Shown here: in pieces, positions 5,444 to 30,469 of the stretch
How the letters are laid out: the number at the start of each line of letters is the position of its first letter
Position numbering within the stretch: the stretch's first letter is position 1
Origin: Odoribacter sp.
GTDB taxonomy: Bacteria; Bacteroidota; Bacteroidia; Bacteroidales; Prolixibacteraceae
NCBI GenBank assembly: GCA_013824715.1
Contig: PNOH01000044.1
Span: 1 to 34,444, forward strand
Length of the DNA: 34,444 nt
Direction: 5' to 3'
Notes under the pieces: generated by a model
What the model was told of the DNA's origin: nothing
Database searches by the model: none
Seen by the model: only the letters and a program-made list of their open reading frames with translations
Position numbers and translations under genes: made by a program

Positions 5444-6274
5444 ATGAGAAGGATAATCGGATTTTTTATCTTGTTTACAGCATTTTCATGCAGCAAACCT
5501 AAGCCTGAAGGATTGATCCTGAAGATTCGTTATCAGCCGGAAAAAACATACAGTATTTCAACCATCAGGGGAACCGAAACCATAATTACCTATTCGGGAG
5601 AGGATTTTGCCATGCGAAAACTGAAAAGCATGCGTGTCAAAAATCCCACGATTTCGAAGGTGAAAACCAAAACCGATACGGAGTTGGTAACCGGTAAAAG
5701 TTCGGCAGACAAAAGCTTTCCGGTTAGCTTAACCTATAAAAAAACAATGAGTCTCAACGGAAAAAATGAAATTCCGGAAGGTACTGTAATACATGGTGAA
5801 ATCTCAGGAGAATCTATGCCAACCTTCAGCAAGGTAATCTCCGGCACGCTTGACTTTGATCAGAAAACCCAGCTTCTGCAAATGGTTCGGAACACCTTCA
5901 CGCAATTTGATTTTCCGGAAAAGAGACTTAAAATCGGTGATCAATTCTCTGCAGATCGTCCTGTTTCGATCCCCATGGAAGGTTCGGTCATCGAAACGGT
6001 AGTTACCACAACCTACAAACTGATTGGAATCAAAAACAACCTGGCACAATTCGAGCTCAGCCAAAGTTACCTGATGACGCCTAAAATAATGGACAATTCT
6101 TTTAAAGGCAGTGGCAGCGGAAAAGGTGAGTTAAGCTACGACATCGGGAACAGCCTGGTTACGGACTACACAATCAAGACGGAACTGGTCATGAATAAAA
6201 AACTCGATTATTTTGAGTTCGACCTGAAAACCATCAATGAATTAAGCCAGACCACACAAATAGTCAAACAGTAA
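5444..6274 (+). CDS. predicted lipoprotein of unknown function
   Basis: The 276-residue protein opens with a short signal peptide (MRRIIGFFILFTAFSC) whose Cys at residue 16 fits a relaxed Bacteroidota lipobox; the next residues are SKPKPEG. The mature part looks beta-rich, with Thr/Ser/Lys-rich strands and no obvious enzyme motif. It is 9 bp downstream of the DUF4395 gene. I do not recognise the family with certainty. It probably sits in the inner or outer membrane facing the periplasm, since the residues after the Cys lack the acidic surface-export signature. It has no visible link to agmatine metabolism. Confidence 0.65.
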   Translation: MRRIIGFFILFTAFSCSKPKPEGLILKIRYQPEKTYSISTIRGTETIITYSGEDFAMRKLKSMRVKNPTISKVKTKTDTELVTGKSSADKSFPVSLTYKKTMSLNGKNEIPEGTVIHGEISGESMPTFSKVISGTLDFDQKTQLLQMVRNTFTQFDFPEKRLKIGDQFSADRPVSIPMEGSVIETVVTTTYKLIGIKNNLAQFELSQSYLMTPKIMDNSFKGSGSGKGELSYDIGNSLVTDYTIKTELVMNKKLDYFEFDLKTINELSQTTQIVKQ

Positions 6275-9421: not shown

Positions 9422-9988
9422 ATGTTGATGAAGAAAAAAATCTATTCCAGGAGTACCCTGGTATTCTTTCTCTGCTTTGTCCTCCATCTTTCCACCAACG
9501 CCCAAACCCGCAAATATTTTATCATTACCGGAAAATTTATTTCTGAATCTGAATTCATCAATCATGGTGAGATTCAAATCATCAAAAAAGACAAATCTGC
9601 AGTTTCGTCACCAGTGCCCCCTCATGGACGTTTTCGCCTTGAGCTGGATTATAATTCTGACTATCAGTTAACTTTTATTCAGGACGGACGATTGCCTAAA
9701 ACTATTGTTGTAAACACCGAAATTCCTAAAGAGGTTTATCTGCGTTCAGTCAATTTTCCGCATTTTGTAATGGCAGTAAAGCTGTTCAATGATAAAAAGG
9801 AAGTTTCAAATATTTACTATTCAGGCGATCAGAAACAACAAATAAACTACTCAGCACAACAAGATTGTTTTGTCAGGGTTCCCACCATATTTGATGTGGA
9901 ATTGGTAGATAAGGGTAACCAACTTCAGGCGCCAGCTATTCATTCGCAAGAGAATAAATCCAAAATGCAGACCTATCAGGTATTTTGA
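9422..9988 (+). CDS. exported protein, short paralogue of the 1688-residue TPR protein's N-domain
   Basis: The 188-residue protein has a signal peptide ending in STNAQ (an in-frame ATG at 9428 is an equally good start). The mature part, KYFIITGKFISESEF...HGRFRLELDYNSDYQLTF...TEIPKEVYLRSVNFPHF, aligns with residues 28-113 of the protein encoded at 10223: KYFVITGRI, NGRFRFELEF, EYYLTF, STEIPKEVWERDNDFPPF. This looks like a small beta-sandwich domain of the kind found at the N-terminus of many Bacteroidota envelope proteins. The TPR part is absent; the C-terminal 60 residues are unlike anything I recognise. It is probably periplasmic. It may be a separate partner or a shortened duplicate of the next gene. 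Confidence 0.7.
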   Translation: MLMKKKIYSRSTLVFFLCFVLHLSTNAQTRKYFIITGKFISESEFINHGEIQIIKKDKSAVSSPVPPHGRFRLELDYNSDYQLTFIQDGRLPKTIVVNTEIPKEVYLRSVNFPHFVMAVKLFNDKKEVSNIYYSGDQKQQINYSAQQDCFVRVPTIFDVELVDKGNQLQAPAIHSQENKSKMQTYQVF

Positions 9989-10222: not shown

Positions 10223-13200
10223 ATGCAAAAGATAGGTAGGATAGGGATTTGGTTAATTCTGATTCTTATTTTTTTGTTTCAGCTTCAAACTCAGGCGCAA
10301 AGCAAAAAATATTTCGTTATTACCGGCAGAATAGTACCTGAAGTTGGGGAGGCAGGCAGTGGTGTTATTGAAGTTAAAAAGAACCAAAATGAAATTACCA
10401 ATATTGAAATTCCTAAAAACGGAAGATTCAGGTTTGAACTTGAGTTTTTCAATGAATACTACCTCACTTTCAAATATCCCGGACATTTTAATAAGATTAT
10501 AATCGTATCAACCGAGATACCGAAAGAAGTTTGGGAGCGCGATAATGATTTCCCGCCATTCCCGATGATTGTTCAGATGCAGCAGGAATTTGAAGGAATT
10601 GACAAAAGTTTTACCCTGAAACCCCAGGGAAAAATTTTCTATGGAAAAGAAATTGATAATTTTGAGAAGGAAAGTTACATTTCGGAAATTCAATTTCAGG
10701 AACAGATAGAAACTGCCAAATCCCAGGCCAATCAGGTTCAAAAAGAAGCACAATCAATTTCGAAAGAAAATGCTCAGGATTTAGCCGAAAAACAAAAGAA
10801 TTTTGATCAATTGATTAAAGAAGCCGACACTCATTACCAACGCGGTGAGTATCAGATGGCTTTAATGAAATACATGGAAGCCAGAAAATTATTCCCTGAA
10901 AAAGCATATCCGAACGATCGGGTTGCCGAACTTCAGGATTTGGTAAAAGCCCTTGAAATTACTGCAAAACAAAAAGCTGACCTCGAACTGAAATATCAGT
11001 CAGCCATTACCAAAGCAAATGGATTTTTCGATCAAAAAACTTATATCAGCGCCAGGCCTTTATACGAAGAAGCGCTCCAATACAAACCCGGCGATGTTTT
11101 TGCAAATGGCCGCATCAATGAAATTGATCAGTTACTCGCCCTTCAGGAAAAACAAAAGCAATACAACGATTTGATTGCTCAGGCCGACAACAACTATAAA
11201 TCAAAAAAATACGATCAGGCTATTTCCTATTACAATCAGGCCATACAAGTAGTTCCTGAAGATCAATATCCTAAAAACCAGATTGCTCTGATCAACGCTG
11301 AACGATTACAGCAGGCCAAAACTGAACAAATCGAAAAAGATTTCAATTTTGCTATACAATCGGCCAATACTCAAACGCAGCAGAAAGATTATCTGCAGGC
11401 CTTAAACTCGTACAAAAGAGCGCTGGAGCTGAAACCAGACAGCAAGCTTGCCAAAGATAAAATCGCCGAAACTGAACTTGCCATCGTGGCTGTCGAAACC
11501 GATAAAAAATACCTTCAGTCTATTCAATTAGCAGATCAGGCGATGGCCGTCAACGACTTTCAAAAAGCAAAAATGCAGTATTTGGAAGCCCTGAAGATAA
11601 AGCCCGGTGAAACTTACCCAAAAAACAAACTTAACGAAATTGCACTTTCCGAATCGCAGGAAATCGAATTCAACGGATTGGTAGCCAATGCGGAGAAAGC
11701 TTTTGCAAGCAATAACTTCGACGAGTCGTTCCGATTATTTAACCAGGCCCTTGAAATAAAACCTAAAAATCAGGCTGTTCAGAAACGGATAGACGATATT
11801 CAGAAGATTCAGAAACAGTTGGCTAAAGATCAGGAGCAGAAAGAAAAAAATTACCAGTCAACGATTACCCAGGCCGACAAACTTTTTGAGAAAAAGGATT
11901 ATACCAATGCCCAGACCGAGTACCGTAAAGCAATGGATATAAAACCGGAAGAAATTTATCCGAAAGATCAGATCCGGAAGATTGACGACACACTTGCTCA
12001 AATCCGGAAACAGGAAGAAGAAAACCAGAGGTTGCTGAAAGAAAAATCGGATCAGGAATATTTTCAGGCAATGGCCAATGCTGATAAGGCATTTTCTGCT
12101 AACGACTTTACCCTTGCAAGAACCGGTTACCAGACTGCACTGTCGGTCAAACCCAACGATGCGGTTGCCAAAGAAAAATTAGGTCAAACTGAGGCCAAAC
12201 TGGGTCAGATTGCCAGAATGACTCAGGCATACAACACAGCAATAACCGAAGCAAACCGCCAGTTGACAGCCAAACAGTATAAAGAAGCAAAAGAAAAATA
12301 TCAGGAAGCCCTTCAATATCTTCCTGATTCAGAATACCCTAAAAAACAAATTACAAAAATTGACGAAGTCCTTGCCCAACAGGAGGCTGAAATTAAACTG
12401 AGACAGGACTTTAACCAGGCATTGGCCGAAGGTGAAACTTTACTCAAAAGCAAAGAACTTACCAAAGCAAAAGAAGCTTATTTGAAAGCTTACAACCTGA
12501 TTCCTTCCGAACCTGTTCCACCAAAAAGAATCAGTGAAATCAATGATCTGCTTGCAGAAAAGGCCCGAAAAGATTCAGAATTGAAAGCCACTACCGAAGC
12601 CTATCAAAATGCCATTCAACGGGCCGATAAGCATTTTGGCAACAAAGATTACAGTTCGGCCCGATTGGTTTACAACGAAGCGATACTGATCAAATCCGAT
12701 GAGCAGTACCCGGTTGATCAACTGGCGCTTATCGAAAAACTTATCAACGAACAGAATGAACAGCAATACAAATCTGCGATTACGCTGGCCGACAATTCTT
12801 TCAACGCCAATCAGTTCGACGAGGCAAAAACTTCCTATCTGGAAGCGCTCAAATACAAAAAAGATGATCAGTATGCCACCCGTAGATTAAAAGAAATTGA
12901 TCAGAAAAAAGCCGGTCTTGAAGCTGAAAATAACCGCCTGAAAAAACTTCAGGATGAATACAATGCTGCCATTGCTGATGCAGGGAACGATTTCAAAAAT
13001 AAGGATTACCTGAAATCGAAGGGTAAATATCAGAAAGCCTTGACCCTGAAACCGGCAGAAATTCTTCCGAAAGACCAGATTGCAAAGATTGATCAGATAT
13101 TGGCCGAATTGCAAAAAGAAGAAGATATCAACCGGCAATACGCCCAGCACATCAAATTGGCACAGGAAGCTTTTACCCTGAATAAACTAAAGGAGGCGCG

Positions 13201-15289
13201 GGATGAATATCAAAAGGCCTATAATTTCAAGCCTTTTGAACCGGTTCCGCCAGCCAGAATAGCCGAAATTGACAAAATGCTCGCACTGCTGGCAGAAACA
13301 GCCCAATTGGCCGCAATGGAAGAAGCCCAGAGGTTAGCCAAAGAAAAAGCCGATAAATATCAGTACGACAACGCTATTGCCGCTGCCGATAAATCGTTCA
13401 CCGAAAAACAATATAAAATTGCACGTACGCATTACACCACCGCGCTTATTGCCCTGCCAAACGAAAAGTATCCGAAAGATCAGATTGCTAAAATTGATGT
13501 ACTATTAAGACAACAGGAATTAGATAAGGCTTCAGCCATACAACAAGCCCAAAGGGACTCCCTGCAAAAAGCCCGTGAGAAGTTATTTGACCTTGCTATG
13601 TCGGCAGCTAAAGAGCACGAACAGAATAAGCAGTATCGGCAAGCCATTACCAAATACGGGGAAGCCATTCAGATCAATCCTTCACAAAGGAGTGCAATTC
13701 AGAAATTAATTAATGATGCCGAAGACAAACTGCAATTGATGACCAGACAGGATTTGGAATATAAGAGGATTATCAGGCTGGCCGATGATCAGTTTGCAGC
13801 TTCGAAACTTGAAGATGCATTGGCTCAATACCAAAATGCCATGAAAATAAAACCTGAAGAAGAATATCCTAAAAAGCAGATCACGGAAATTCAGGCAATA
13901 TTGACAACCCGTGAACAAAATTACACCAGCGCCATACAAAAAGCTGACCAGGCATTTGACACATCGGACTGGCAAATGGCCAAAATCAGTTATACAGAAG
14001 CTCTCGCTATAAAGCCAAAAGAAGCATATCCGGCCCAGCGGTTGAAAGAAGTTAACCAGAGAATAGCCGATCTTAATTTGGCCGAACTTAATTTGGCATC
14101 TTTGAATAAGGCCTATGCTGAAGCGCTTGAAAAAGCTGAAAAATCATTTAAGGAAAACCAGCTTACAACAGCCCGGATTCAATTTGAAGTAGCCAGATCG
14201 TTGAAACCAGATGAAAAAGTACCGGTCGCCCGTATCAAAGAAATTGATGGCTTGCTGGAGCAACGGAACAAAGATCGTCTGGCTCAGGCCCAACGCGAAT
14301 TGGACGAAAAATATCTTCAGGCCATTTCGGTTGCTGATAATTCTTTTCGCGCGAAATCATACAGCATTGCCAAACTGCAATATAAACAAGCTTCGATCAT
14401 CAAACCGGACGAATCCTATCCAAAGGATCAGATGACATTGTGTGACAAACTTCTAAGTGAAGTTGTTCCGGTTGAAACTTATGTGTATAAATTGCCTGAA
14501 GTGGAAACTGCAAAACCAGCAGCCAGGCCGGTTTTCAATCCGGCAGAATCGGCTCAGGCCACCGAAGCTCGGGCCAAATCGTACGAAATGATTTCCAATT
14601 ACGATGAAGCTGTTAAACGGGCAGACGATTCATTTGGAATCAAAGACTATTCAGTGGCCCGGTTCTTTTATCTGAAAGCTAGTGACATCAAACCTAAAGA
14701 AGAATATCCTAAAAATCAGTTGGAATTAATCCGGAAACTGATTGACTCGCAATTGTCGGCTAACGATGTTTCGGGATATGACAATGCCATTTCGAAGGCT
14801 GATGACGCATTTGCCAAACAAAATTACACCATAGCCAAATTCTTCTATTACAAAGCCATCGAAATTAAATCGTGGGAAAAATATCCAAAGGACCGGATTA
14901 ATGAAATTTTGTTGCTCACTAACTCCCTGCTTTCAGAAAAAGAAGAAAAAGAATATCGTGATTTTCTTGCCAAAGCAGATGAGGCCTTTTACAACAAAGA
15001 CATGGCAATTGCCCGGTTTTATTATAACAAGGCGATTACAATAAAAAAAGATGAAAACTATCCGCAGATAAAACTTAAAGATATCCAGAAACTGATTCTA
15101 CAGGATAATCAAGATCAGCAAAACCAGGAATACAGTAAGATAATTGAACAGGCAGATCAGGCCTTGCAGGCTGGAAATTTCAGTATCGCCCGTTTTAATT
15201 ACAACAAAGCTTTGACATTGAGACCTGATGAGAAATATCCAAAAGATCAGTTAAAAAGCATCAAAGCAGCGCTGGAAAAGCAAAAATAA
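10223..15289 (+). CDS. giant exported TPR-like repeat protein (1688 residues)
   Basis: A signal peptide (residues 1-26, ending TQAQ) is followed by a beta-rich domain (28-120) shared with the protein encoded at 9422, a charged helical linker (about 145-192), and then 24 tandem TPR-like units to the last residue. Each unit follows the pattern Y..AI..AD..F..K.Y..A...Y..AL.IKP.E.YPK.QI..I, 53-96 residues long including variable coiled-coil-like linkers. There is no C-terminal OmpA, beta-barrel or type IX secretion domain, so it probably works as a long periplasmic or surface scaffold. Lys, Glu and Gln are abundant. The gene starts 234 bp after its shorter paralogue, and a hairpin follows at 15299. 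Its function is unknown to me. Confidence 0.85.
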   Translation: MQKIGRIGIWLILILIFLFQLQTQAQSKKYFVITGRIVPEVGEAGSGVIEVKKNQNEITNIEIPKNGRFRFELEFFNEYYLTFKYPGHFNKIIIVSTEIPKEVWERDNDFPPFPMIVQMQQEFEGIDKSFTLKPQGKIFYGKEIDNFEKESYISEIQFQEQIETAKSQANQVQKEAQSISKENAQDLAEKQKNFDQLIKEADTHYQRGEYQMALMKYMEARKLFPEKAYPNDRVAELQDLVKALEITAKQKADLELKYQSAITKANGFFDQKTYISARPLYEEALQYKPGDVFANGRINEIDQLLALQEKQKQYNDLIAQADNNYKSKKYDQAISYYNQAIQVVPEDQYPKNQIALINAERLQQAKTEQIEKDFNFAIQSANTQTQQKDYLQALNSYKRALELKPDSKLAKDKIAETELAIVAVETDKKYLQSIQLADQAMAVNDFQKAKMQYLEALKIKPGETYPKNKLNEIALSESQEIEFNGLVANAEKAFASNNFDESFRLFNQALEIKPKNQAVQKRIDDIQKIQKQLAKDQEQKEKNYQSTITQADKLFEKKDYTNAQTEYRKAMDIKPEEIYPKDQIRKIDDTLAQIRKQEEENQRLLKEKSDQEYFQAMANADKAFSANDFTLARTGYQTALSVKPNDAVAKEKLGQTEAKLGQIARMTQAYNTAITEANRQLTAKQYKEAKEKYQEALQYLPDSEYPKKQITKIDEVLAQQEAEIKLRQDFNQALAEGETLLKSKELTKAKEAYLKAYNLIPSEPVPPKRISEINDLLAEKARKDSELKATTEAYQNAIQRADKHFGNKDYSSARLVYNEAILIKSDEQYPVDQLALIEKLINEQNEQQYKSAITLADNSFNANQFDEAKTSYLEALKYKKDDQYATRRLKEIDQKKAGLEAENNRLKKLQDEYNAAIADAGNDFKNKDYLKSKGKYQKALTLKPAEILPKDQIAKIDQILAELQKEEDINRQYAQHIKLAQEAFTLNKLKEARDEYQKAYNFKPFEPVPPARIAEIDKMLALLAETAQLAAMEEAQRLAKEKADKYQYDNAIAAADKSFTEKQYKIARTHYTTALIALPNEKYPKDQIAKIDVLLRQQELDKASAIQQAQRDSLQKAREKLFDLAMSAAKEHEQNKQYRQAITKYGEAIQINPSQRSAIQKLINDAEDKLQLMTRQDLEYKRIIRLADDQFAASKLEDALAQYQNAMKIKPEEEYPKKQITEIQAILTTREQNYTSAIQKADQAFDTSDWQMAKISYTEALAIKPKEAYPAQRLKEVNQRIADLNLAELNLASLNKAYAEALEKAEKSFKENQLTTARIQFEVARSLKPDEKVPVARIKEIDGLLEQRNKDRLAQAQRELDEKYLQAISVADNSFRAKSYSIAKLQYKQASIIKPDESYPKDQMTLCDKLLSEVVPVETYVYKLPEVETAKPAARPVFNPAESAQATEARAKSYEMISNYDEAVKRADDSFGIKDYSVARFFYLKASDIKPKEEYPKNQLELIRKLIDSQLSANDVSGYDNAISKADDAFAKQNYTIAKFFYYKAIEIKSWEKYPKDRINEILLLTNSLLSEKEEKEYRDFLAKADEAFYNKDMAIARFYYNKAITIKKDENYPQIKLKDIQKLILQDNQDQQNQEYSKIIEQADQALQAGNFSIARFNYNKALTLRPDEKYPKDQLKSIKAALEKQK
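10796..15286 (+). repeat. 24 tandem TPR-like repeat units in the coding sequence
   Basis: Counting from KNFDQLIKEADTHY (residue 192), 24 units can be laid end to end, the last beginning YSKIIEQADQAL. The most constant positions are AD/AN in helix A, F/Y at the end of helix A, A and Y in helix B, and the turn IKP-x-E-x-YPKDQI. Six units lack the YP turn (for example SKLAKDK, NQAVQKR, SQRSAIQ). Units 21-24 are the most alike (ARFFY/AKFFY/ARFYY/ARFNY), suggesting the C-terminal end expanded most recently. Confidence 0.85.
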
Positions 15290-19202: not shown

Positions 19203-19658
19203 ATGCCTCCTCAGCTAAAGACTTTGCTGCCACTTTTGGCAGTATTTATTTGCATTTTCCTCGTCGCCCGACATTTTCTGATACCGGAGTCGTTTGGAAA
19301 ATACGGGCACTACCGGGCTAACTCGATAGATGAAACTGCAGCGCTTCCGATCAACTATGTAGGAAAAAAGGCATGCGCTGAATGCCATGACACCGAAGCT
19401 GCCCAGCTTGCTTCCGACCTTCACAATGGACTTACCTGTGAAGTTTGCCATGGCCCGGGCTCATTACATATCGAAGATCAGGAAAAAGGAATACTCCTAA
19501 AACCTGGTAGCAGGGAATTTTGCGGGACATGCCATAGTATTAATCCTGCACGCAGAACTGAAGTTATTAACCAAATTGATACAAAGGAACACCATCCGGA
19601 AAAGGAAAAATGTATCGATTGCCATAATCCACATGCAGTATGGGAACTGAAAGATTAA
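19203..19658 (+). CDS. membrane-anchored tetrahaem cytochrome c (module A)
   Basis: The 151-residue protein has one N-terminal hydrophobic helix (about residues 7-27) that should anchor it in the inner membrane with the rest in the periplasm. Four CxxCH haem c motifs are visible at C58-H62, C79-H83, C107-H111 and C137-H141, with extra His residues (H74, H89, H130, H131, H144) available as second axial ligands. It resembles short cytochromes of the c3/DsrJ/NrfH kind. Its end overlaps the next gene, a four-cluster ferredoxin, by 19 bp, implying coupled translation and a common complex. It likely receives electrons from, or gives them to, that ferredoxin. Maturation would need a cytochrome c assembly system outside this window. 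Confidence 0.9.
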   Translation: MPPQLKTLLPLLAVFICIFLVARHFLIPESFGKYGHYRANSIDETAALPINYVGKKACAECHDTEAAQLASDLHNGLTCEVCHGPGSLHIEDQEKGILLKPGSREFCGTCHSINPARRTEVINQIDTKEHHPEKEKCIDCHNPHAVWELKD

Positions 19659-20407
19659 ACGACACGAGGCGAAATTTTTTACGAAAGTCAGCAGCGCTGG
19701 CCGGAACCTTATTGGCAGCTTCGGTTACCAAACCTTTTACAGCAGTCATTTTTGCCGCAAACCAGCCAGATAAAACAAAACCCTGGTATGGGATCGGGAT
19801 TGATATTGAAAAATGTATAGGTTGCGGTAATTGTGCAAAGGCATGCAAATTGGAAAATGATGTCCCCAAAGAACCATTTTATTTCAGGTCGTGGGTCGAG
19901 CAGTATGCCATAAAAAATGATGGTACCGTAAAAGTTGAATCGCCTAATGGCGGGATTGATGGGTTTACTCAAACAGTGGCGGCAGAAGATATATTCAAAA
20001 CATTCTTCGTTCCCAAGATGTGTAATCATTGCGCAAAATCGCCATGCACACAGGTATGTCCGGTTGGAGCAACATTTGAAAGCCCGGAAGGAATAGCGCT
20101 GGTTGATGATAAATATTGTATTGGTTGCCGGTATTGCATTCAGGCCTGCCCATACGGATGCCGTTACCTTCATCCGGTAAAAAATACAGTTGACAAATGC
20201 ACTTTATGTTATCACCGGATAAAAAAAGGTTTATCACCGGCATGTGTAGAAGTTTGTCCTACAGGAGCAAGGATTTATGGTGACCTGAATGATAAGGAAG
20301 GCCTGTTAAACAAGTTTCTGAAAGAACACAACTGCCATGTTTTAAAACCCAATTTAAATACCGGTTCAAAATTATTTTATAACGGATTAAGCGCGGAGGT
20401 ACGATAA
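19640..20407 (+). CDS. Tat-exported four-cluster ferredoxin, NrfC/DsrO-like (module A)
   Basis: The N-terminus carries a twin-arginine signal, TRRNFLRKSAALAG (R10-R11), so the folded protein is exported. Four [4Fe-4S] cluster motifs follow: C59/62/65/69, C128/131/136/140, C160/163/166/170 and C187/190/202/206, arranged as in NrfC, PsrB, HybA and DsrO. In those systems this subunit wires a periplasmic partner to an NrfD-type membrane protein. Here it lies between a tetrahaem cytochrome gene (19-bp overlap) and an NrfD gene (1-bp gap), which fixes its role as the electron wire of a cytochrome-ferredoxin-NrfD complex. There is no catalytic subunit next to it. Confidence 0.9.
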   Translation: MGTERLNDTRRNFLRKSAALAGTLLAASVTKPFTAVIFAANQPDKTKPWYGIGIDIEKCIGCGNCAKACKLENDVPKEPFYFRSWVEQYAIKNDGTVKVESPNGGIDGFTQTVAAEDIFKTFFVPKMCNHCAKSPCTQVCPVGATFESPEGIALVDDKYCIGCRYCIQACPYGCRYLHPVKNTVDKCTLCYHRIKKGLSPACVEVCPTGARIYGDLNDKEGLLNKFLKEHNCHVLKPNLNTGSKLFYNGLSAEVR

Positions 20408-20408
20408 T

Positions 20409-21587
20409 ATGGAACATTTATATGAAATGCTCAAACAGGTTGACGGATACATTTATCCCAACGAAATAGAACTTCATTGGGGCATCCTGATCGTACTTTA
20501 CCCTTATATTACAGGATTGGTTGCAGGCGCTTTTATACTTGCTTCACTTGAACGGGTTTTTAAAATAAAAGTCCTTCGGCCAACCTATCACCTGGCCCTT
20601 TTAACCGCTCTTTCGTTCCTAATCGTAGCAATTCTTCCACTGGTTTCACATCTTGGACATCCGTTCAGGGCATACGAAATAATGACCACACCGCAAATTG
20701 GTTCTGCAATGGCGATATTCGGCTTTGTTTATTTATGGTACCTTATGGTCGTGTTATTGCTCGAAATTTGGTTTGATTACCGTCGTGACCTTGTCATTTG
20801 GGCAGACCAGTCAAAAGGCCTTAAACGGACGATTTATAAAATACTTACTTTGGGGGTAACCGACATTTCGCCAAAAGCTCTTGCCTGGGACGAAAAACTC
20901 GGATACATTGTTACGGTAATTGGTATTCCTTCTGCGTTCCTCCTGCACGGTTATGTCGGTTTTATTTTTGGCTCTATCAAAGCCAATCCATGGTGGTCAA
21001 CCGTTCTGATGCCGGTTATTTTTCTTCTCTCGGCGATGGTTTCGGGCATTGCACTGGTTATGTTTTTATACATGATCATTTCGTGGATCCGAAAAGTGAA
21101 AATTGATATGGCCTGTTTGGACGAAATTGGGAAATTTCTCTTTATGGTATTAATTCTTGATTTCACGCTTGAATCGCTCGATCAGGTTCACCGTATTTAC
21201 GAAGCCGAAGAATCATTCGAAATTTTGCACATGCTGGTCAACGGTAAATTAAATATGACCCTCTTTATTTTTCAGGGACTTATGGGAACGATTATTCCTT
21301 TAGTAATACTTGGTTTATTCAGGATGTACTTACCAAAGGAAAAAATACGAATACCTATGTATTTTCTGGTAAGTAACTTAGTTCTTTTTGGTGTGTTTTT
21401 TATGCGCTGGAATGTTGTAATCGGAGGTCAGTTGTTTTCAAAAAGTTTCCTTGGATTTACCAGTTTCAAATTAGGAATGATTGGAGCAGAAGGTTTTTTG
21501 ATGGCTCTTGTCTGGATGATTATGCCTTTTCTCATTCTTTCATTTATACTTTGGTTGGTGCCGCCTTGGAAAAAACATTCTGAATAA
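20409..21587 (+). CDS. NrfD/PsrC-family quinone-site membrane protein (module A)
   Basis: The 392-residue protein has about ten transmembrane segments and recognisable NrfD/PsrC features: HWGILIVLYPYITGLVAGAF, SHLGHPFRAYEIMTTPQIGSAMAIFG and HGYVGFIFGSIKANPWWSTVLMPVIFLLSA. Such subunits exchange electrons between the quinone pool (menaquinone in most Bacteroidota) and a periplasmic iron-sulfur protein. It begins one base after the ferredoxin gene stop and precedes the DUF2339-like gene by 13 bp. It differs considerably in sequence from the second NrfD protein at 24870, so the two are not a recent duplication. Confidence 0.88.
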   Translation: MEHLYEMLKQVDGYIYPNEIELHWGILIVLYPYITGLVAGAFILASLERVFKIKVLRPTYHLALLTALSFLIVAILPLVSHLGHPFRAYEIMTTPQIGSAMAIFGFVYLWYLMVVLLLEIWFDYRRDLVIWADQSKGLKRTIYKILTLGVTDISPKALAWDEKLGYIVTVIGIPSAFLLHGYVGFIFGSIKANPWWSTVLMPVIFLLSAMVSGIALVMFLYMIISWIRKVKIDMACLDEIGKFLFMVLILDFTLESLDQVHRIYEAEESFEILHMLVNGKLNMTLFIFQGLMGTIIPLVILGLFRMYLPKEKIRIPMYFLVSNLVLFGVFFMRWNVVIGGQLFSKSFLGFTSFKLGMIGAEGFLMALVWMIMPFLILSFILWLVPPWKKHSE

Positions 21588-21600
21588 AATCTGATTCAAT

Positions 21601-23256
21601 ATGCAAATAGAAAAATCTGATTCGCTGGAATTAAAGACTATTCGTGAGGAATTACAGCAATTAAAAACCCGGATCACGCGTCTTGAAGCCTCATTTGATA
21701 TGCAAAAAGGGACAAAAAATCAAATCCCTGCAATTGGTTCTGAACAGCCGGATGATGATTTCGAACTGAATTTTTCATCTAAATCAGATGATTCAATCGA
21801 ATTCCGGGTTGGAGAATACGGGATGGCGTGGCTTGGAAACATCGTTTTACTTTTTGGAATATCCTTTCTTGTTCAATATCTGCAAAATTCAGGGTATAAG
21901 GTATTTTCAGCATTGATTGGATTTATTTTAGTTGGGGGGATATATGCAGGAGCCTACTATACGCGCCAATCATTATCGTACCTGTCGAAACTTTTTGCCT
22001 ATACCGGGCATCTGCTATTGTTTTACATGGCACTGCGGCTTCACTTTTTTCAGGATGAACCTTTGATCCCGAACAAGCTGGCCGGACTTTTCGTTTTAGT
22101 ACTTGTCCCCGGTGTACTGTTATACCTTTCATTCGGACGTAAATCACAACTACTGGCAGGAATAGCTTTGCTGATGCTTTTATTTTCTGGTATTATCAGC
22201 AATTCAATACCATTTGCTTCAGGAATAACAACACTTGTCGCACTCCTGTCGGTAATACTCTTCTACAGGTTGGGCTGGCTTAAAATTGTTTTTATATTTA
22301 TTTTTCTGATCTACCTGAGTCATTTTAACTGGCTGCTGAACAGTCCGTTTGTGGGAAACAAATTCGAATTTATTCAGTCACCCGGGATTGGATATTTCCA
22401 TCTGTTTGCAACCGGTTTCATAATCTCCATTCTAGCCCTGCTACCCAAAAAGGAAGACGTCTCGGATGATTTTATCACTACCTCGGTCGTATGGAACGGA
22501 CTGCTTTTTACTTTAGTCCTTGCATTAACTGTGGTTACGTATTTAAGCCATAACTATGTTCCTGTTTTCGCTGTTCTGGCCATTGTTTGCCTGGTTTATT
22601 CGGTTGTACTTCAATCCCGTTCATATCTGAAAATTACGGCATCAATGTACGCACTGTATGGTTTTCTTGCATTGAGTGTCGCATTTTATGGAATACTCTT
22701 CTTCCCAAAAGTCTATATGCTCCTGGCGCTTCAAAGTTTGCTTGTAGTTTCCATGGCCCTTTGGTTTGGTTCCAGGTTTATTGTAGTAATGAATACAATC
22801 CTCTTTCTGATTTTGATGATATTTTACTTGTCGTCCCAGGGAAATCACAGCCCCACCAATTTTTCGTTTATGCTGGTAGCTATTATTACTGCCCGGATCA
22901 TAAACCTGAAAAAAGAACGGTTAAATATCAAAACAGAGCACATCCGTAACTTATACCTGGTTTTAGGATTTTTAATGACCCTGATAGCCTTCTACCACGC
23001 TTTCCCTCCATCATACATTACTGTTTCATGGATTTTTGCCGCCCTGCTGTTTTTCATAGTAGGCCGCCTAATCAATAACATCAAATACCGGTGGCTGGCA
23101 ATTGGCATATTAATCGTTTCGGCAGTCAAATTAATCTTTGTTGACCTGTCGGATCTGGATATTGGCTTCAGGGTATTGGTTTTCCTTTTGCTGGCAATTA
23201 TTTCCATTTCTGTTTCCATTTTATATACCAAATACCTGGTTAAAAAGAAGGATTAA
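21601..23256 (+). CDS. DUF2339-like polytopic membrane protein
   Basis: A short N-terminal coiled coil (LELKTIREELQQLKTRITRLEASF, residues 9-32) is followed by an acidic stretch and then roughly 14-16 membrane helices, starting WLGNIVLLFGISFLVQYL. This layout, with helix pairs and few soluble loops, is that of DUF2339 proteins, whose function is unknown. The gene lies 13 bp after the first NrfD gene and 84 bp before the second module, so it is probably in the same transcript. Whether it belongs to the redox complex or only shares the operon cannot be told. The family assignment rests on architecture more than on motifs. Confidence 0.65.
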   Translation: MQIEKSDSLELKTIREELQQLKTRITRLEASFDMQKGTKNQIPAIGSEQPDDDFELNFSSKSDDSIEFRVGEYGMAWLGNIVLLFGISFLVQYLQNSGYKVFSALIGFILVGGIYAGAYYTRQSLSYLSKLFAYTGHLLLFYMALRLHFFQDEPLIPNKLAGLFVLVLVPGVLLYLSFGRKSQLLAGIALLMLLFSGIISNSIPFASGITTLVALLSVILFYRLGWLKIVFIFIFLIYLSHFNWLLNSPFVGNKFEFIQSPGIGYFHLFATGFIISILALLPKKEDVSDDFITTSVVWNGLLFTLVLALTVVTYLSHNYVPVFAVLAIVCLVYSVVLQSRSYLKITASMYALYGFLALSVAFYGILFFPKVYMLLALQSLLVVSMALWFGSRFIVVMNTILFLILMIFYLSSQGNHSPTNFSFMLVAIITARIINLKKERLNIKTEHIRNLYLVLGFLMTLIAFYHAFPPSYITVSWIFAALLFFIVGRLINNIKYRWLAIGILIVSAVKLIFVDLSDLDIGFRVLVFLLLAIISISVSILYTKYLVKKKD

Positions 23257-23277
23257 AAGCGGACGAATTGCCCGCTT
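23257..23277 (+). terminator. possible hairpin between the two redox modules
   Basis: AAGCGG (23257-23262) and CCGCTT (23272-23277) pair perfectly around a 9-base loop directly after the DUF2339-like stop codon. No T-run follows at once; the next one starts about 20 bases later. It may end or process the upstream message, or merely attenuate expression of module B. Confidence 0.35.
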
Positions 23278-23340
23278 CAGGCCTATGTGAACAAGTTTTT
23301 TTAATGCACCATTAATATTTATTTCGAAAAAGAATTCAAT

Positions 23341-23922
23341 ATGAAGCATAGAAAAAACGTACTTGTTAAGCTTTCGAATCTTGCCCTGGCATTTTCTATT
23401 TTCCTGTTGACTGGTTGCCAGCAAAAAGAATCTGAAAACACGAAGCTGCCTCAACTATCCGAAGTCAAAGAATCAGGACTAAAGAAAGGCGAAACTTTAG
23501 AAAATGCGATCGAACTGCCGCCTTTCAGCGATGGAATATTTCCCTGTAGCGATTGTCATACAGATTTAACCCCGAATCCGTTGAAAAGAGAATTAGTAGA
23601 TATGCACGATGACATATCGGCTATGTTTGATCATGATAAAGAAAACCGTTGGTGTACCGATTGCCATGATTTGATTAACAGGGACTATCTGAAGCTTGCC
23701 AGTGGAAAATTACTGGATTTCAAGGAATCATATAAACTATGTGGACAGTGCCATGGTGAGAAACTCAGGGACTGGAAAGTTGGAGTTCATGGAAAGAGAA
23801 CGGGTAATTGGAACGGGAAAAAAGAATATCTGCTTTGCGTTCATTGTCACAATCCACACTCCCCAAAATTTAAGCAATTAACGCCAGAACCTCCACCAAT
23901 CAGGCAGGAAGATATCAACTAG
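23341..23922 (+). CDS. tetrahaem cytochrome c lipoprotein (module B)
   Basis: The signal peptide ends in the lipobox LLTGC (C26), so the protein is a lipoprotein. Four CxxCH motifs occur at C69-H73, C105-H109, C134-H138 and C166-H170. The segment LCGQCHGEKLRDWKVGVHGKR and the closing LLCVHCHNPHSPKF are well-spaced, typical bis-His multihaem features, with H98, H150 and H173 as candidate distal ligands. It is unrelated in detail to the module A cytochrome (lipid anchor instead of a helix, different spacing), although both have four haems. It is followed after 27 bp by the second Tat ferredoxin gene. Lipid anchoring leaves open whether it sits in the inner or the outer membrane. Confidence 0.9.
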   Translation: MKHRKNVLVKLSNLALAFSIFLLTGCQQKESENTKLPQLSEVKESGLKKGETLENAIELPPFSDGIFPCSDCHTDLTPNPLKRELVDMHDDISAMFDHDKENRWCTDCHDLINRDYLKLASGKLLDFKESYKLCGQCHGEKLRDWKVGVHGKRTGNWNGKKEYLLCVHCHNPHSPKFKQLTPEPPPIRQEDIN

Positions 23923-23949
23923 ATTTTAGAAATCGAAAATCCGCTCAGC

Positions 23950-24840
23950 ATGAAAAAAGAAAATTCAAGAAGGTCGTTTTTCAAAAATATATCTTTAGCA
24001 TCAATCTCGGCGCTTGCACTCAACGGATGCGACCCGAAGGCTCTGAAGGAGTTTCTTCAACGGAACTTCAGGACTTTGTCGAAAAAAGAAAAAAACGACA
24101 TCGTCAAAAATTTAGAAGTAAAATACAAAGAAACCTACGGAAAAGAATTTCATGTATCGGCTGAACCTGCGATGGAAGGAGTTTTGTTTGGATATGCTTT
24201 GGATTTATCACGTTGTATTGGCTGCCGGAAATGTGTTTATGCCTGCGTTGGTGAGAACAATCAGTCGCGTGAACCACAGATTCATTGGATACAGGTGCTC
24301 GAAATGGAAAAAGAAAAAGGGATTGATCTGGCACATTCAAATGTTCACTATAATCCTGAAAAAGTTCCTGAAAAAGGGAAATCCTATTTTCCGGTAGCCT
24401 GTCAGCAGTGCCGAAATCCACAGTGTACAACTGTATGCCCAGTGAAGGCTACCTGGCAGGAACCTGACGGAATTGTAGTGGTTGATTACAACTGGTGTAT
24501 TGGCTGCAGGTATTGCATGGCAGCCTGCCCTTATGGAGCAAGGCACTTCAATTGGGGACAGCCAAATGTTCCTGCAGAAGAGATAAATACTGAAATGCAT
24601 TACCTGGGCAACAGGCCAAGAGTGAAAGGAGTTGTCGAAAAATGTACATTCTGTATTCAAAGGGTAAGGGTAGGCAAATATCCTTCATGTGTTGAAATTT
24701 GTCCGGTAGGGGCCCGTAAATTTGGGAATCTTTTAGACTCAGAGAGTGAAATCAGATATATTTTGGAAAACAAACGTGTATTTGTATTGAAACAAGAATT
24801 AAACACCCAACCCAAATTTTATTATTTCTTTGGTATATAA
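23950..24840 (+). CDS. Tat-exported four-cluster ferredoxin, DsrO-like, probable lipoprotein (module B)
   Basis: The N-terminus has a twin-arginine motif (S-R7-R8-S-F-F-K), then a short hydrophobic stretch ending in LNGC, with C27 in lipobox position, so it may be a Tat-exported lipoprotein. Clusters are predicted at C89/92/95/99, C151/154/159/163, C183/186/189/193 and C232/235/247/251. The long insert between cluster motifs 1 and 2 (residues 100-150) and IQVLEMEKEKGIDL resemble DsrO and HmeA. It sits between the lipoprotein cytochrome and the second NrfD gene (29 bp), giving the same gene order as module A. Role: electron transfer between haems and the quinone-binding subunit. Confidence 0.88.
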   Translation: MKKENSRRSFFKNISLASISALALNGCDPKALKEFLQRNFRTLSKKEKNDIVKNLEVKYKETYGKEFHVSAEPAMEGVLFGYALDLSRCIGCRKCVYACVGENNQSREPQIHWIQVLEMEKEKGIDLAHSNVHYNPEKVPEKGKSYFPVACQQCRNPQCTTVCPVKATWQEPDGIVVVDYNWCIGCRYCMAACPYGARHFNWGQPNVPAEEINTEMHYLGNRPRVKGVVEKCTFCIQRVRVGKYPSCVEICPVGARKFGNLLDSESEIRYILENKRVFVLKQELNTQPKFYYFFGI

Positions 24841-24869
24841 CCGGTTAGCATATCTAAAAATATATAGCT

Positions 24870-26102
24870 ATGAATTTTATTCGTTTTATAACAGGCAGTA
24901 TAAAAATAATCCTTCAGGGTAGCAAGGCCTATTATGCATGGCTGATTTTCCTGTTGTTATTAATACTTTGGGGCGGATTTGGTTATTTCGGTCAGCTAAG
25001 TGAAGGATTGATAAAAACACACATGCGCGATTCGGTATCCTGGGCTTTTTATATCGGAAATTTCACTTTCCTTGTAGGAGTAGCGGCTGCGGCTGTTCTG
25101 TTGGTCATACCTGCCTATATTTACGACTGGAAACCAATCAAGGAAATTGTAATTTTTGGCGAATTGCTGGCTGTTTGTGCTGTAATTATGTGTATTTCAT
25201 TTATTGTGGTAGATATTGGAAATCCCCTCCGGTTTTGGCACATGCTACCTCTGATTGGCACCATGAACTTTCCATCTTCAATGCTTTCCTGGGATTTTTT
25301 CGTTCTTAACATCTATTTAATAATTAATTTATTTGTAGTGACCTACCTTCTTTATTGTATTTTTTTCAAAAAGGAGTATAATAAATCACTTGTTTTGCCA
25401 CTGGTTTTAATAAGCATACCCATGGCTGTGGCCATTCATACTGTAACCGCATTTCTTTACAATGCTTTGCCTGCCCGTCCATTTTGGAATAGCGCCTTAC
25501 TTGCCCCAAGATTTTTGGCTTCAGCATTCTGTTCAGGCCCGGCTATTCTTTTGATTCTATTTCAACTACTTCGGAAAACTACCAAATTTGAAATTAAAGA
25601 CGAAGCTATCTGGAAAATTGCTGAACTTATGGTATATGCCATGTTCATTTATTTATTCTTTACGATAGCCGAACTGTTTAAAGAATTTTATTCGGGAACT
25701 GAACATCTTCTGTACTGGAAATATTTGCTTTTCGGGATAGGCGACAACAATGAAATTGTTGTTTATAGCTGGCTGTCAATTATTATGGGATGTATTGCTT
25801 TTATACTTTTCTTAATTCCAAAAACCCGTATGAATTTTGTGACCCTTAATATCGGCGCAGTTCTTATTTATGCCAGCGTTTATGTTGAAAAAGGAATTGC
25901 TCTTATTATTCCCGGATTTACGCCTGATGTATTAGGACAAATTTATGTTTATACACCATCAATGACTGAAATAAGAACCGCTGCAATGATATTTTCTCTT
26001 GGATTTTTACTCTTTACTTTTTTAGTAAAAGTTGCAATAGCCATCGTATTTGAAGATTACAACATCGATGTTCTGAATCAGAAAAAAAATGCCTTGAATT
26101 AA
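24870..26102 (+). CDS. NrfD/DsrP-family quinone-site membrane protein (module B)
   Basis: The 410-residue protein has about ten membrane helices. FYIGNFTFLVGVAAAAVLLVIPAYIY, FIVVDIGNPLRFWHMLP and MNFPSSMLSWDFFVLNIYL correspond to the DsrP/HmcC branch of the NrfD family, which handles menaquinol at the periplasmic face. It ends the second module and probably the operon. Its TAA stop (26100-26102) overlaps the stop of the convergent DUF2490-like gene (26099-26101), so no terminator separates them. Compared with the NrfD protein at 20409, it is clearly from another branch, which implies two distinct complexes rather than a duplication. Confidence 0.88.
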   Translation: MNFIRFITGSIKIILQGSKAYYAWLIFLLLLILWGGFGYFGQLSEGLIKTHMRDSVSWAFYIGNFTFLVGVAAAAVLLVIPAYIYDWKPIKEIVIFGELLAVCAVIMCISFIVVDIGNPLRFWHMLPLIGTMNFPSSMLSWDFFVLNIYLIINLFVVTYLLYCIFFKKEYNKSLVLPLVLISIPMAVAIHTVTAFLYNALPARPFWNSALLAPRFLASAFCSGPAILLILFQLLRKTTKFEIKDEAIWKIAELMVYAMFIYLFFTIAELFKEFYSGTEHLLYWKYLLFGIGDNNEIVVYSWLSIIMGCIAFILFLIPKTRMNFVTLNIGAVLIYASVYVEKGIALIIPGFTPDVLGQIYVYTPSMTEIRTAAMIFSLGFLLFTFLVKVAIAIVFEDYNIDVLNQKKNALN

Positions 26103-29347: not shown

Positions 29348-30469
29348 ATGGACAAAAGCTCAACAAATCCTGATCTTGCAATTACAGGAAGGATCGCATC
29401 AGTAGATTTCTTTCGTGGTCTAACCATGTTTCTTTTGATCGGCGAAAGCACCCATTTGTACAGCCGCATCAGTCAAATTGAAGGGAGCAGCATTATGCAA
29501 TTTATTGGCACTCAACTCGATCATCACGAATGGCACGGAATGTATTTTTGGGATCTGATACAACCTTTTTTCATGTTTATTGTCGGAGTGGCGATCCCGT
29601 TTGCAGTGGCCAACCGGATCAAAAAAGGAGACTCCGATCAGACCATATTGCACCATGCTATCAAGCGATCGTTCCTGTTACTGTTTTTAGGATGGGCTTT
29701 GTATTGTATTGAACCCGGCGAAATCGTTTTCAGGTTTCAAAACGTATTGGCGCAATTATCAGTTACCTATATGGTTGCCTTCCTGATATTTAAAAGAAGC
29801 TTCACTTTTCAACTGATTTTCACTTTGGTAGTTCTTTTACTCACAGATCTGGCTTACCGGTTTTTTCCTGTTGAAGGTTTTAATCACCCCTGGGTAGCTT
29901 TTGAAAACCTTGGGGCCTGGACCAATAATAAAATTGAAGGCGTTGATAAAGCAAGTATCTGGGCATCAATTAACGCCATCCCAACCATTGCACATACGGT
30001 TTGGGGTGTTCTCTTCGGACAACTCCTGATGAGCGCACGGCCAGTAAAAAAGAAAATCCAGATCATGTTGATTGCCGGTCTGGCTGGCTTACTGATAGGT
30101 TACTCGCTCGATTTTTTGAATATCACCCCAATCATTAAAAAAATTTCAACCTCCTCATTTGTGTTTGCCAGTGGCGGCTGGGCTATACTTGCACTCTGCT
30201 TCTCATACTGGTTAATTGATGTGAAAAAGCTATTTGCCCAAGGTTCAAAATTCTTTATCATCGTTGGGATGAACTGCATCTTTATTTACCTCTTTTTTCA
30301 TATCGGAGGAGCCAACCTGGTCAGCTCTATATTCGTGCCTTTTGCCAAACTATTCTTTTCATGGGCCGGCGACCTGTCAGTAAAAATTGCCACAAGCCTG
30401 GCAACCTGGCTGGCTTTGTGGTATATCTGTTATTGGTTATATAAATACCGGTTATTCATTAAAATCTAA
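29348..30469 (+). CDS. DUF5009/NagX-like membrane acyltransferase family protein
   Basis: The 373-residue protein has about 10-11 membrane helices. It begins GRIASVDFFRGLTMFLLIGES and continues with HHEWHGMYFWDLIQPFFMFIVGVAIPFA, both typical of the heparan-alpha-glucosaminide N-acetyltransferase-like (HGSNAT/YeiB-related, DUF5009) proteins common in Bacteroidota. Family members are thought to move acetyl groups across the membrane to amino sugars, although for most, including this one, this is not shown. It lies in a block of sugar-catabolism genes, 100 bp after glpK. Conserved H residues (H63-H64, H67) near the second helix could be the acetyl-accepting site. Confidence 0.8.
   Translation: MDKSSTNPDLAITGRIASVDFFRGLTMFLLIGESTHLYSRISQIEGSSIMQFIGTQLDHHEWHGMYFWDLIQPFFMFIVGVAIPFAVANRIKKGDSDQTILHHAIKRSFLLLFLGWALYCIEPGEIVFRFQNVLAQLSVTYMVAFLIFKRSFTFQLIFTLVVLLLTDLAYRFFPVEGFNHPWVAFENLGAWTNNKIEGVDKASIWASINAIPTIAHTVWGVLFGQLLMSARPVKKKIQIMLIAGLAGLLIGYSLDFLNITPIIKKISTSSFVFASGGWAILALCFSYWLIDVKKLFAQGSKFFIIVGMNCIFIYLFFHIGGANLVSSIFVPFAKLFFSWAGDLSVKIATSLATWLALWYICYWLYKYRLFIKI

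Follow-up and report, generated by a model that had tools for sequence, protein, structure and literature searches.

Respiration with acceptors outside the cell is known chiefly from Geobacter and Shewanella, and the wiring that leads from the quinone pool to haem proteins of the envelope, known in Geobacter, is to our knowledge little studied in Bacteroidota. Passages of PMC11434368 present the Cbc4 complex (CbcSTU) of Geobacter, and a trio of Shewanella that resembles it, as a cytochrome, an iron-sulfur protein and a membrane subunit without a catalytic subunit, and implicate Cbc4 in extracellular electron transfer; for CbcU an NrfD annotation is implied in the text, while the figure legend speaks of a b-type cytochrome. 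The same passages describe SirCD of Shewanella, a ferredoxin with an NrfD/PsrC-type protein, as a stand-alone general quinol dehydrogenase that can replace CymA. Here we describe a run of seven genes at positions 19203 to 26102 of a contig of Odoribacter sp. (PNOH01000044.1, assembly GCA_013824715.1; Prolixibacteraceae in GTDB), in which two trios of this kind, called modules A and B, lie on either side of a gene for a DUF2339-like membrane protein. The whole contig, C44 of a 4.6 Mb genome in 85 contigs, was analysed over its 34,444 nucleotides and is referred to as the window.

Gene content, conservation, quinone-site residues, the predicted NrfD fold of module A and the gene neighbours are directly seen, and from them we infer the direction of the electrons, the menaquinol donor, the extracellular acceptor and a partitioning by potential. 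With a probability of about 0.58, the modules are two independent Cbc4/SirCD-like quinol:cytochrome c oxidoreductases with an accessory membrane protein, feeding an envelope network and probably an external acceptor. Our confidence is high that they are quinol:cytochrome oxidoreductases which stand alone, belong to different NrfD branches and are accompanied by a DUF2339-like protein, and moderate that they feed an envelope multihaem network of the extracellular-respiration type. In each complex the NrfD subunit would oxidise menaquinol at a site facing the periplasm, the four [4Fe-4S] clusters of the exported subunit would move electrons outward, and the tetrahaem cytochrome would pass them to other multihaem cytochromes, not to a dedicated reductase. 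The modules would be extra entry points to the envelope cytochrome network, as Cbc4 is in Geobacter or SirCD in Shewanella, and in this genome that network would also include the ImcH-like, CbcL-like, beta-barrel and lipoprotein-type cytochrome genes of contig C33. The chain likely ends at the outer membrane or beyond it, where the acceptor would be found. The two gateways may match acceptors or quinol states of differing potential, comparable to ImcH, CbcL and CbcBA, which according to parts of PMC12307469 serve different potential ranges in Geobacter; such a split would be a plausible reason for having two modules.

Quinone sites and family placement of the two modules

Pfam assigns the members of each trio to cytochrome c7-type, 4Fe-4S dicluster and PF03916 NrfD families (Table 1). 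A preliminary description of this DNA had claimed two consecutive cytochrome-ferredoxin-NrfD modules; all six genes are borne out, but the trios are not directly consecutive, the DUF2339-like gene standing between them. The two NrfD proteins share only 18% identity over 351 aligned columns and belong to different branches, so that a recent duplication is not what produced the pair, as the description had also held. The predicted anchors differ too: CytA has a single N-terminal hydrophobic segment (residues 9-27) beside its four CxxCH motifs, and CytB has a lipobox-like sequence.

The roles of the residues discussed here are taken from PMC8076601, with E. coli NrfD as the reference for module A. 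His81 and Ser99 of NrfD-A, which correspond to His74 and Ser92 of E. coli NrfD, are kept in all 34 family members, and module A has all three of His74, Ser92 and Arg306. In NrfD-B, Asp115, Ser137 and Lys341 occur in 8/8 aligned proteins, and one relative (locus L062) has Ala in place of the quinone-site Ser. The ActF of the same genome, confirmed by a match in the PDB, has neither quinone-site residue. Because both NrfDs keep key quinone-site residues, A and B look like two separate quinone-reactive complexes, unlike the ActC/ActF pair of alternative complex III (ACIII), and the earlier proposal of two quinone-linked complexes gains support. The predicted structure of NrfD-A has the NrfD fold.

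Four CxxCH motifs are found in 31 of 34 members of the CytA family and eight in the other three; in the CytB family 57 of 58 have four, and a crude pattern finds a lipobox-like motif in 29 of 58. FesA carries the motif RRNFLRK and four sets of four cysteines plus two extra ones, and the RRx[FL] motif is universal in its family (34/34). FesB carries RRSFFKN and the lipobox-like ALNGC, with four sets of four cysteines besides the lipobox cysteine; RRx[FL] is present in 56/61 and the lipobox-like motif in 53/61 of its relatives.

NrfD-A passes no NCBIfam cut-off, the best being NrfD at 47.3 against 347.6 bits, and its FesA misses NrfC (152.4 against 377.6 bits); for module B the NrfD and NrfC scores of 26.0 and 109.2 bits are both under cut-off. 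A plasmid search with NrfD-A returned 11 haloarchaeal records, of which the ten listed are 24-30% identical and annotated as molybdoenzyme anchors. NrfD-B does pass the DsrP model NF045798 (405.5 bits, cut-off 350), and its gate residue is Lys as in DsrP1, from which one might take module B for a remnant of DsrJOP serving sulfur metabolism. We regard this as most improbable. FesB falls below the DsrO cut-off (NF045797; 183.9 against 200), CytB has four CxxCH motifs where DsrJ is a triheme protein and gives no DsrJ match (NF038038) at E 0.001, and the genome holds no DsrM match (NF038037) at E 0.001 and no dsrA above cut-off. These DsrO, DsrJ, DsrM and dsrA tests disfavour any Dsr or sulfur role. 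The DsrP model is moreover passed by relatives of NrfD-B that are linked to the nitrate reductase NapA (405.4-419.3 bits) and is thus not specific to sulfur metabolism. This matters for automatic naming: a module-B-type protein of Flammeovirga is labelled as DsrP of sulfate reduction though it is encoded in a nitrate reductase gene run, and the DsrP label on such proteins would wrongly imply sulfur metabolism.

The DUF2339-like protein scores 25.7 bits against the Pfam model, under the cut-off of 33.6. Its predicted structure, an N-terminal helix and a large all-helical membrane domain (pLDDT 80.9), has no PDB match at E <=0.001. The gene is present in 28/80 module B loci and 10/14 loci with module A alone (both counts are lower bounds where loci end at contig edges), and it occurs on either side of the modules, so its association with them is loose.

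Table 1. The seven genes of the run, in order along the window
Gene	Positions	Strand	Features
cytA	19203..19658	+	tetrahaem c-type cytochrome, N-terminally anchored, module A; Pfam Cytochrome_C7
fesA	19640..20407	+	Tat-type signal, four predicted [4Fe-4S] clusters, module A; NrfC/PsrB/TtrB-type matches
nrfD-A	20409..21587	+	NrfD-type membrane quinone subunit, module A; PF03916, 122.2 bits
DUF2339-like	21601..23256	+	polytopic membrane protein, 551 aa, ~16 hydrophobic segments
cytB	23341..23922	+	tetrahaem c-type cytochrome, predicted lipoprotein, module B; 4 CxxCH, lipobox-like LTGC
fesB	23950..24840	+	Tat-type signal, probably lipid-anchored, four predicted [4Fe-4S] clusters, module B
nrfD-B	24870..26102	+	DsrP-type membrane quinone subunit, module B; PF03916, 121.5 bits

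The seven genes likely form one operon, to judge from successive gaps of -19, +1, +13, +84, +27 and +29 bp and from the two terminator-like sites on the + strand, which lie within cytA and fesA, with none between genes. The gap of 84 bp before cytB could hold a promoter; scans for promoters, terminators and Bacteroidetes-type promoters were uninformative. Pfam scans of the 21 other main open reading frames (ORFs) of the window show no respiratory catalytic subunit, in agreement with the preliminary description, and no ORF of the whole window besides cytA and cytB has two or more CxxCH motifs. Three of the 21 (5444-6274, 9422-9988 and 29348-30469) have no Pfam match at E 1e-5. The window also encodes, at 10223-15289, a 1688-residue protein built of many TPR-like repeats.

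Distribution and linkage of the modules

Relatives were followed in two overlapping sets. For module B we took the best 80 of 127 confirmed relatives, chosen by similarity to NrfD-B; for module A we surveyed 295 genomes of the order and examined 14 of the 15 genomes that carry A without B (all but G046). Loci L007, L031 and L048, for example, are apparently contigs of genomes G022, G107 and G263, and L156 is apparently the same as L033. Closest among the fetched loci is L068, from the Prolixibacteraceae metagenome-assembled genome UBA9940, whose NrfD-B is 100% identical.

Each trio is a stable unit. In 78 of the 80 B loci the genes for CytB, FesB and the DsrP-type subunit lie together and share a strand, the two exceptions (L025, L052) ending at contig edges, and cytA and fesA accompany nrfD-A in all 14 A-only loci. 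The two trios meet less regularly. Across the order A occurs in 19 genomes, B in 7 and both in 4, always adjacent, a co-occurrence with a Fisher p of 0.0004, or 0.003 without the window's genome, kinship being ignored. Twenty of the 80 B loci also contain A, 19 on the same strand, of which nine run A-B and ten B-A. A single module is nevertheless usual at the thresholds used: B is absent from 15/19 genomes with A, A from 3/7 with B, and the seven genomes of loci L157-L163, found at the level of the phylum, have A without B. As to the preliminary description's question of whether the six genes stay together in relatives, they do so in the 19 same-strand loci and in the four genomes with both modules, two sets that overlap, but one module by itself is the usual case.

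A quick tree of 42 NrfD-A sequences (SH-aLRT support only, a few long branches, "A only" judged from the locus) requires five changes for the A-B arrangement, four of them forced by well-supported branches, and three for B-A, two of them forced. A and B have thus joined on more than one occasion and in either order, from which we suggest that their association is under selection.

This record bears on whether A and B might form one supercomplex, in the way that ACIII holds ActC and ActF. They adjoin each other in a single run, the arrangement of which varies, and NrfD-B has four PDB matches, each of them an ActC chain. The frequency with which either module occurs alone, the quinone site kept in both NrfDs and lost in ActF, and the possession by each trio of its own iron-sulfur and cytochrome subunits all speak against it, and we consider the supercomplex very unlikely. 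A single ACIII-like complex is disfavoured by the same residues and by separate occurrence; no ActB-like subunit was found among the scanned window proteins. The preliminary description had pictured the two complexes acting in series or in opposite directions. We see no support for that picture; since a single module is all that most surveyed genomes carry, parallel entry points are the better fit.

Some features of individual loci were recorded in passing. In L112 (G279:C242:12172-13392) the DsrP-like frame has one in-frame TAG, which may reflect decay of the gene or an error in sequencing. In L019, from the cultured Maribellus sediminis Y2-1-60, which has both modules, module B is followed immediately by two genes for methylmalonyl-CoA mutase subunits (L019:11435-15627), and in several loci of Maribellus and Draconibacterium the genes after B are of about that size.

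Electron acceptors and the direction of flow

The genome that contains the window has likely ingredients of a multihaem network on contig C33. One gene encodes a 500-residue protein of NapC type that has three hydrophobic segments at its N-terminus, a single CX3CH motif and six of the CX2CH kind, another a 924-residue protein with 19 CX2CH motifs and a C-terminal b-type cytochrome domain. Parts of PMC6295460 ascribe such architectures to ImcH and to CbcL/MtrH/MtoC, and we call the two proteins ImcH-like and CbcL-like on the strength of that architecture only, without comparison to the Geobacter proteins. Beside them lie genes for further haem proteins, namely a 7-haem cytochrome, a cytochrome b561, a tetrahaem protein of the c554 type and mono- and pentahaem proteins whose N-termini look lipobox-like by eye, together with genes for a DUF5777 beta-barrel and an assembly protein of the ResB/CcsA type. 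Among the 295 genomes of the order the ImcH-like gene occurs in 18/19 with A and 39/276 without it, and the CbcL-like gene in 12/19 and 16/276, respectively; B co-occurs with either gene in 6/7 genomes. These comparisons ignore kinship and include a few partial CbcL-like matches.

Physical linkage in relatives is the more direct evidence. At least one of eight listed cluster genes lies near module B in 27/80 loci (13 have the 19-haem type, 10 the ImcH-like, and 16 at least one of these two), and in a Planctomycetota locus (L056) the 19-haem type, A, CcsBA, c554 and B follow one another on one strand (the names CcsBA and c554, like ActA, ActD, ActE, NarH and NapC6h, are provisional and were assigned from position, from Pfam or by eye). 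A phylum-wide survey found A in 11 of 395 genomes, and loci were examined for eight of the ten outside the window's own, leaving out the two most distant matches. In seven of these eight, A belongs to a multihaem cluster whose genes run in the same direction and whose other members include cytochrome b-like, Rieske-like or 9- to 11-haem proteins; in the remaining one (L156) A comes after B. The ImcH-like gene is present in six of the eight. L162 and L163 share a run of 13-haem, 19-haem, ImcH-like, A, Rieske, cytochrome b and 11-haem genes, which in L163 extends to a barrel-like 425-residue protein (no Pfam match, the barrel called by eye), a cytochrome with 14 haems and a pair of 6-haem proteins whose N-termini are lipobox-like. 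From its predicted products this extension resembles a putative porin-cytochrome set.

Two further loci of the window's genome hold related genes. On C2 (L088:1-9983) a NarG over cut-off stands beside c-type cytochromes and a further NrfD/iron-sulfur pair, which scores 146.8 bits for DsrP and 182.5 bits for DsrO, both below cut-off. On C10 (L087:1-2664) a Rieske-like gene is accompanied by one for a cytochrome b that carries, in the same polypeptide, at least nine haem motifs of c type; this fusion resembles the ExtM/ExtP models under their cut-offs, and its frame continues past the locus.

The naming by architecture and the neglect of kinship weigh against a feeding of extracellular respiration, and further points have to be set beside them. 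The ImcH/CbcL-like cluster is on a different contig from the modules, and no outer-membrane conduit of proven type was identified in the genome. None of the eight cluster genes lies nearby in 53/80 B loci or in 12 of the 14 A-only loci of the order, many loci ending at contig edges. Four of the seven multihaem-cluster loci of the phylum survey (L158-L161) come from one genus, leaving about three lineages. NrfD-A keeps only 8/18 of the E. coli NrfD reference residues. A soluble reductase encoded elsewhere is, finally, a possible partner, given that one branch of module B serves NapA.

That branch has three members, 45-47% identical to the window's NrfD-B, which form one clade (SH-aLRT 100) on a long branch of unsure position. 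On plasmid p1 of Flammeovirga kamogawensis (L166:6904-13083, NZ_CP076130.1) the genes are napD, napA, a tetrahaem cytochrome, cytB, fesB and dsrP, the NapA passing both NCBIfam cut-offs; on contig 14 of genome G588 (L168:5059-10977) they are napA, the tetrahaem cytochrome, cytB, fesB and dsrP, with a NapA that passes one cut-off and misses the other by less than 1 bit. Both are apparently nitrate reductase gene runs with two tetrahaem cytochromes, an iron-sulfur protein and a DsrP-like membrane subunit. In the third, L141, a TorA/BisC-like enzyme below cut-off is encoded on the opposite strand beside the trio. Since nitrate reduction by NapA needs quinol oxidation, electrons in this branch most likely flow from quinol to the periplasm, and by analogy the same direction may be assumed for the window's module B.

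The NapA runs and the TorA/BisC-like neighbour, together with the NrfA of the window's own genome, are what would lead one to propose that a soluble periplasmic reductase for nitrate, nitrite or an N- or S-oxide, with its gene elsewhere in the genome, receives electrons from one module or from both, and that the tetrahaem cytochrome has the role of NapC or NrfB. We take this to be a real if distinctly lesser possibility. The NapA-linked trios are a clade of their own, and G588 holds both this kind and an adjacent A/B pair of the window's type. Near window-type modules NrfA, NrfH and NarG occur in 0/80 B and 0/14 A-only loci, and a PhsA-like molybdoenzyme in 2/80 and 0/14. The preliminary description would have been refuted by a catalytic subunit in the same operon of relatives; window-type modules largely withstand this test and the divergent branch with its NapA does not, so that the outcome is only partly favourable. 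The genome's NrfA (678.3 bits, cut-off 595; contig C6) already adjoins an NrfH over cut-off and so has no need of these modules; with the Nrf cut-offs missed as well, a Nrf role is disfavoured. Other candidates in the genome are the NarG on C2 and a PhsA-like enzyme below cut-off on C10, the contig that also carries a separate ACIII-type locus.

Electrons might also run the other way, the modules being quinone reductases fed by periplasmic cytochromes in electron uptake from outside or from syntrophic partners. NrfD-type complexes are known to work in both directions, Qrc and Nhc being cytochrome c3:quinone oxidoreductases (PMC8076601), and CbcL-family proteins occur in Fe(II) oxidisers too, according to parts of PMC6295460. 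We hold reverse flow to be unlikely: the divergent branch is wired to NapA and a quinol-consuming respiration, and module B scores far below the Qrc models (FesB 156.5 bits for QrcC, cut-off 400; NrfD-B 39.8 for QrcD, cut-off 570). An acceptor in the periplasm or envelope as the likely partner of the modules, akin to what the preliminary description had offered as a possibility, is supported.

One may speculate further, with more doubt than belief, that A, B and the DUF2339-like protein together are a gateway of Bacteroidota type, in which parallel, potential-selective entries lead to a trans-envelope cytochrome conduit, the DUF2339-like protein is a new subunit or assembly factor of the NrfD complexes, and the parts of A and B are reshuffled, across Bacteroidota, Planctomycetota and Lentisphaerae, among partners of the ImcH-like, CbcL-like and Rieske/cytochrome b kinds. 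Should the modules prove to be what they resemble, a number of Bacteroidota and Planctomycetota of sediment and groundwater would hold a comparable inner-membrane apparatus made from interchangeable parts, and it would become testable why an electron-exporting bacterium retains several quinol dehydrogenases.

Comparison with known systems

A trio without a catalytic subunit, which had been presented as an anomaly, is already known from Cbc4, the Shewanella trio and SirCD in the passages of PMC11434368 cited above; the novelty, as a variant, lies in the doubling of the trio, in how the two are linked and in the partner of DUF2339 type. Among the matches listed in the open-access literature searched, none deals with these modules. 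By its description, Cbc4 agrees in having a c-type cytochrome, an iron-sulfur protein and a membrane subunit in one operon with no catalytic subunit, and differs in that here two units of different NrfD branches share one gene run with a DUF2339-like gene between them. With SirCD the pair of an iron-sulfur and an NrfD/PsrC-type protein is in common, while here each unit also has a tetrahaem cytochrome.

The remaining likenesses are partial. DsrJOP shares the order cytochrome, iron-sulfur protein, DsrP and the model that NrfD-B passes, against which stand four haems instead of three, a DsrO score below cut-off and the lack of DsrM and of a dsrA over cut-off. NrfBCD shares the cytochrome, the 4x[4Fe-4S] protein and NrfD, with His74, Ser92 and Arg306 kept in module A, whereas the NCBIfam NrfC and NrfD cut-offs are missed and NrfA lies elsewhere beside NrfH. 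Alternative complex III differs by its ActB-like subunit, of which the window has none, by the quinone-site residues present here in both NrfDs, and by its separate locus in the same genome. ImcH and CbcL, to go by the architectures in PMC6295460 that the C33 proteins share, are possible partners of the two modules and not their homologues.

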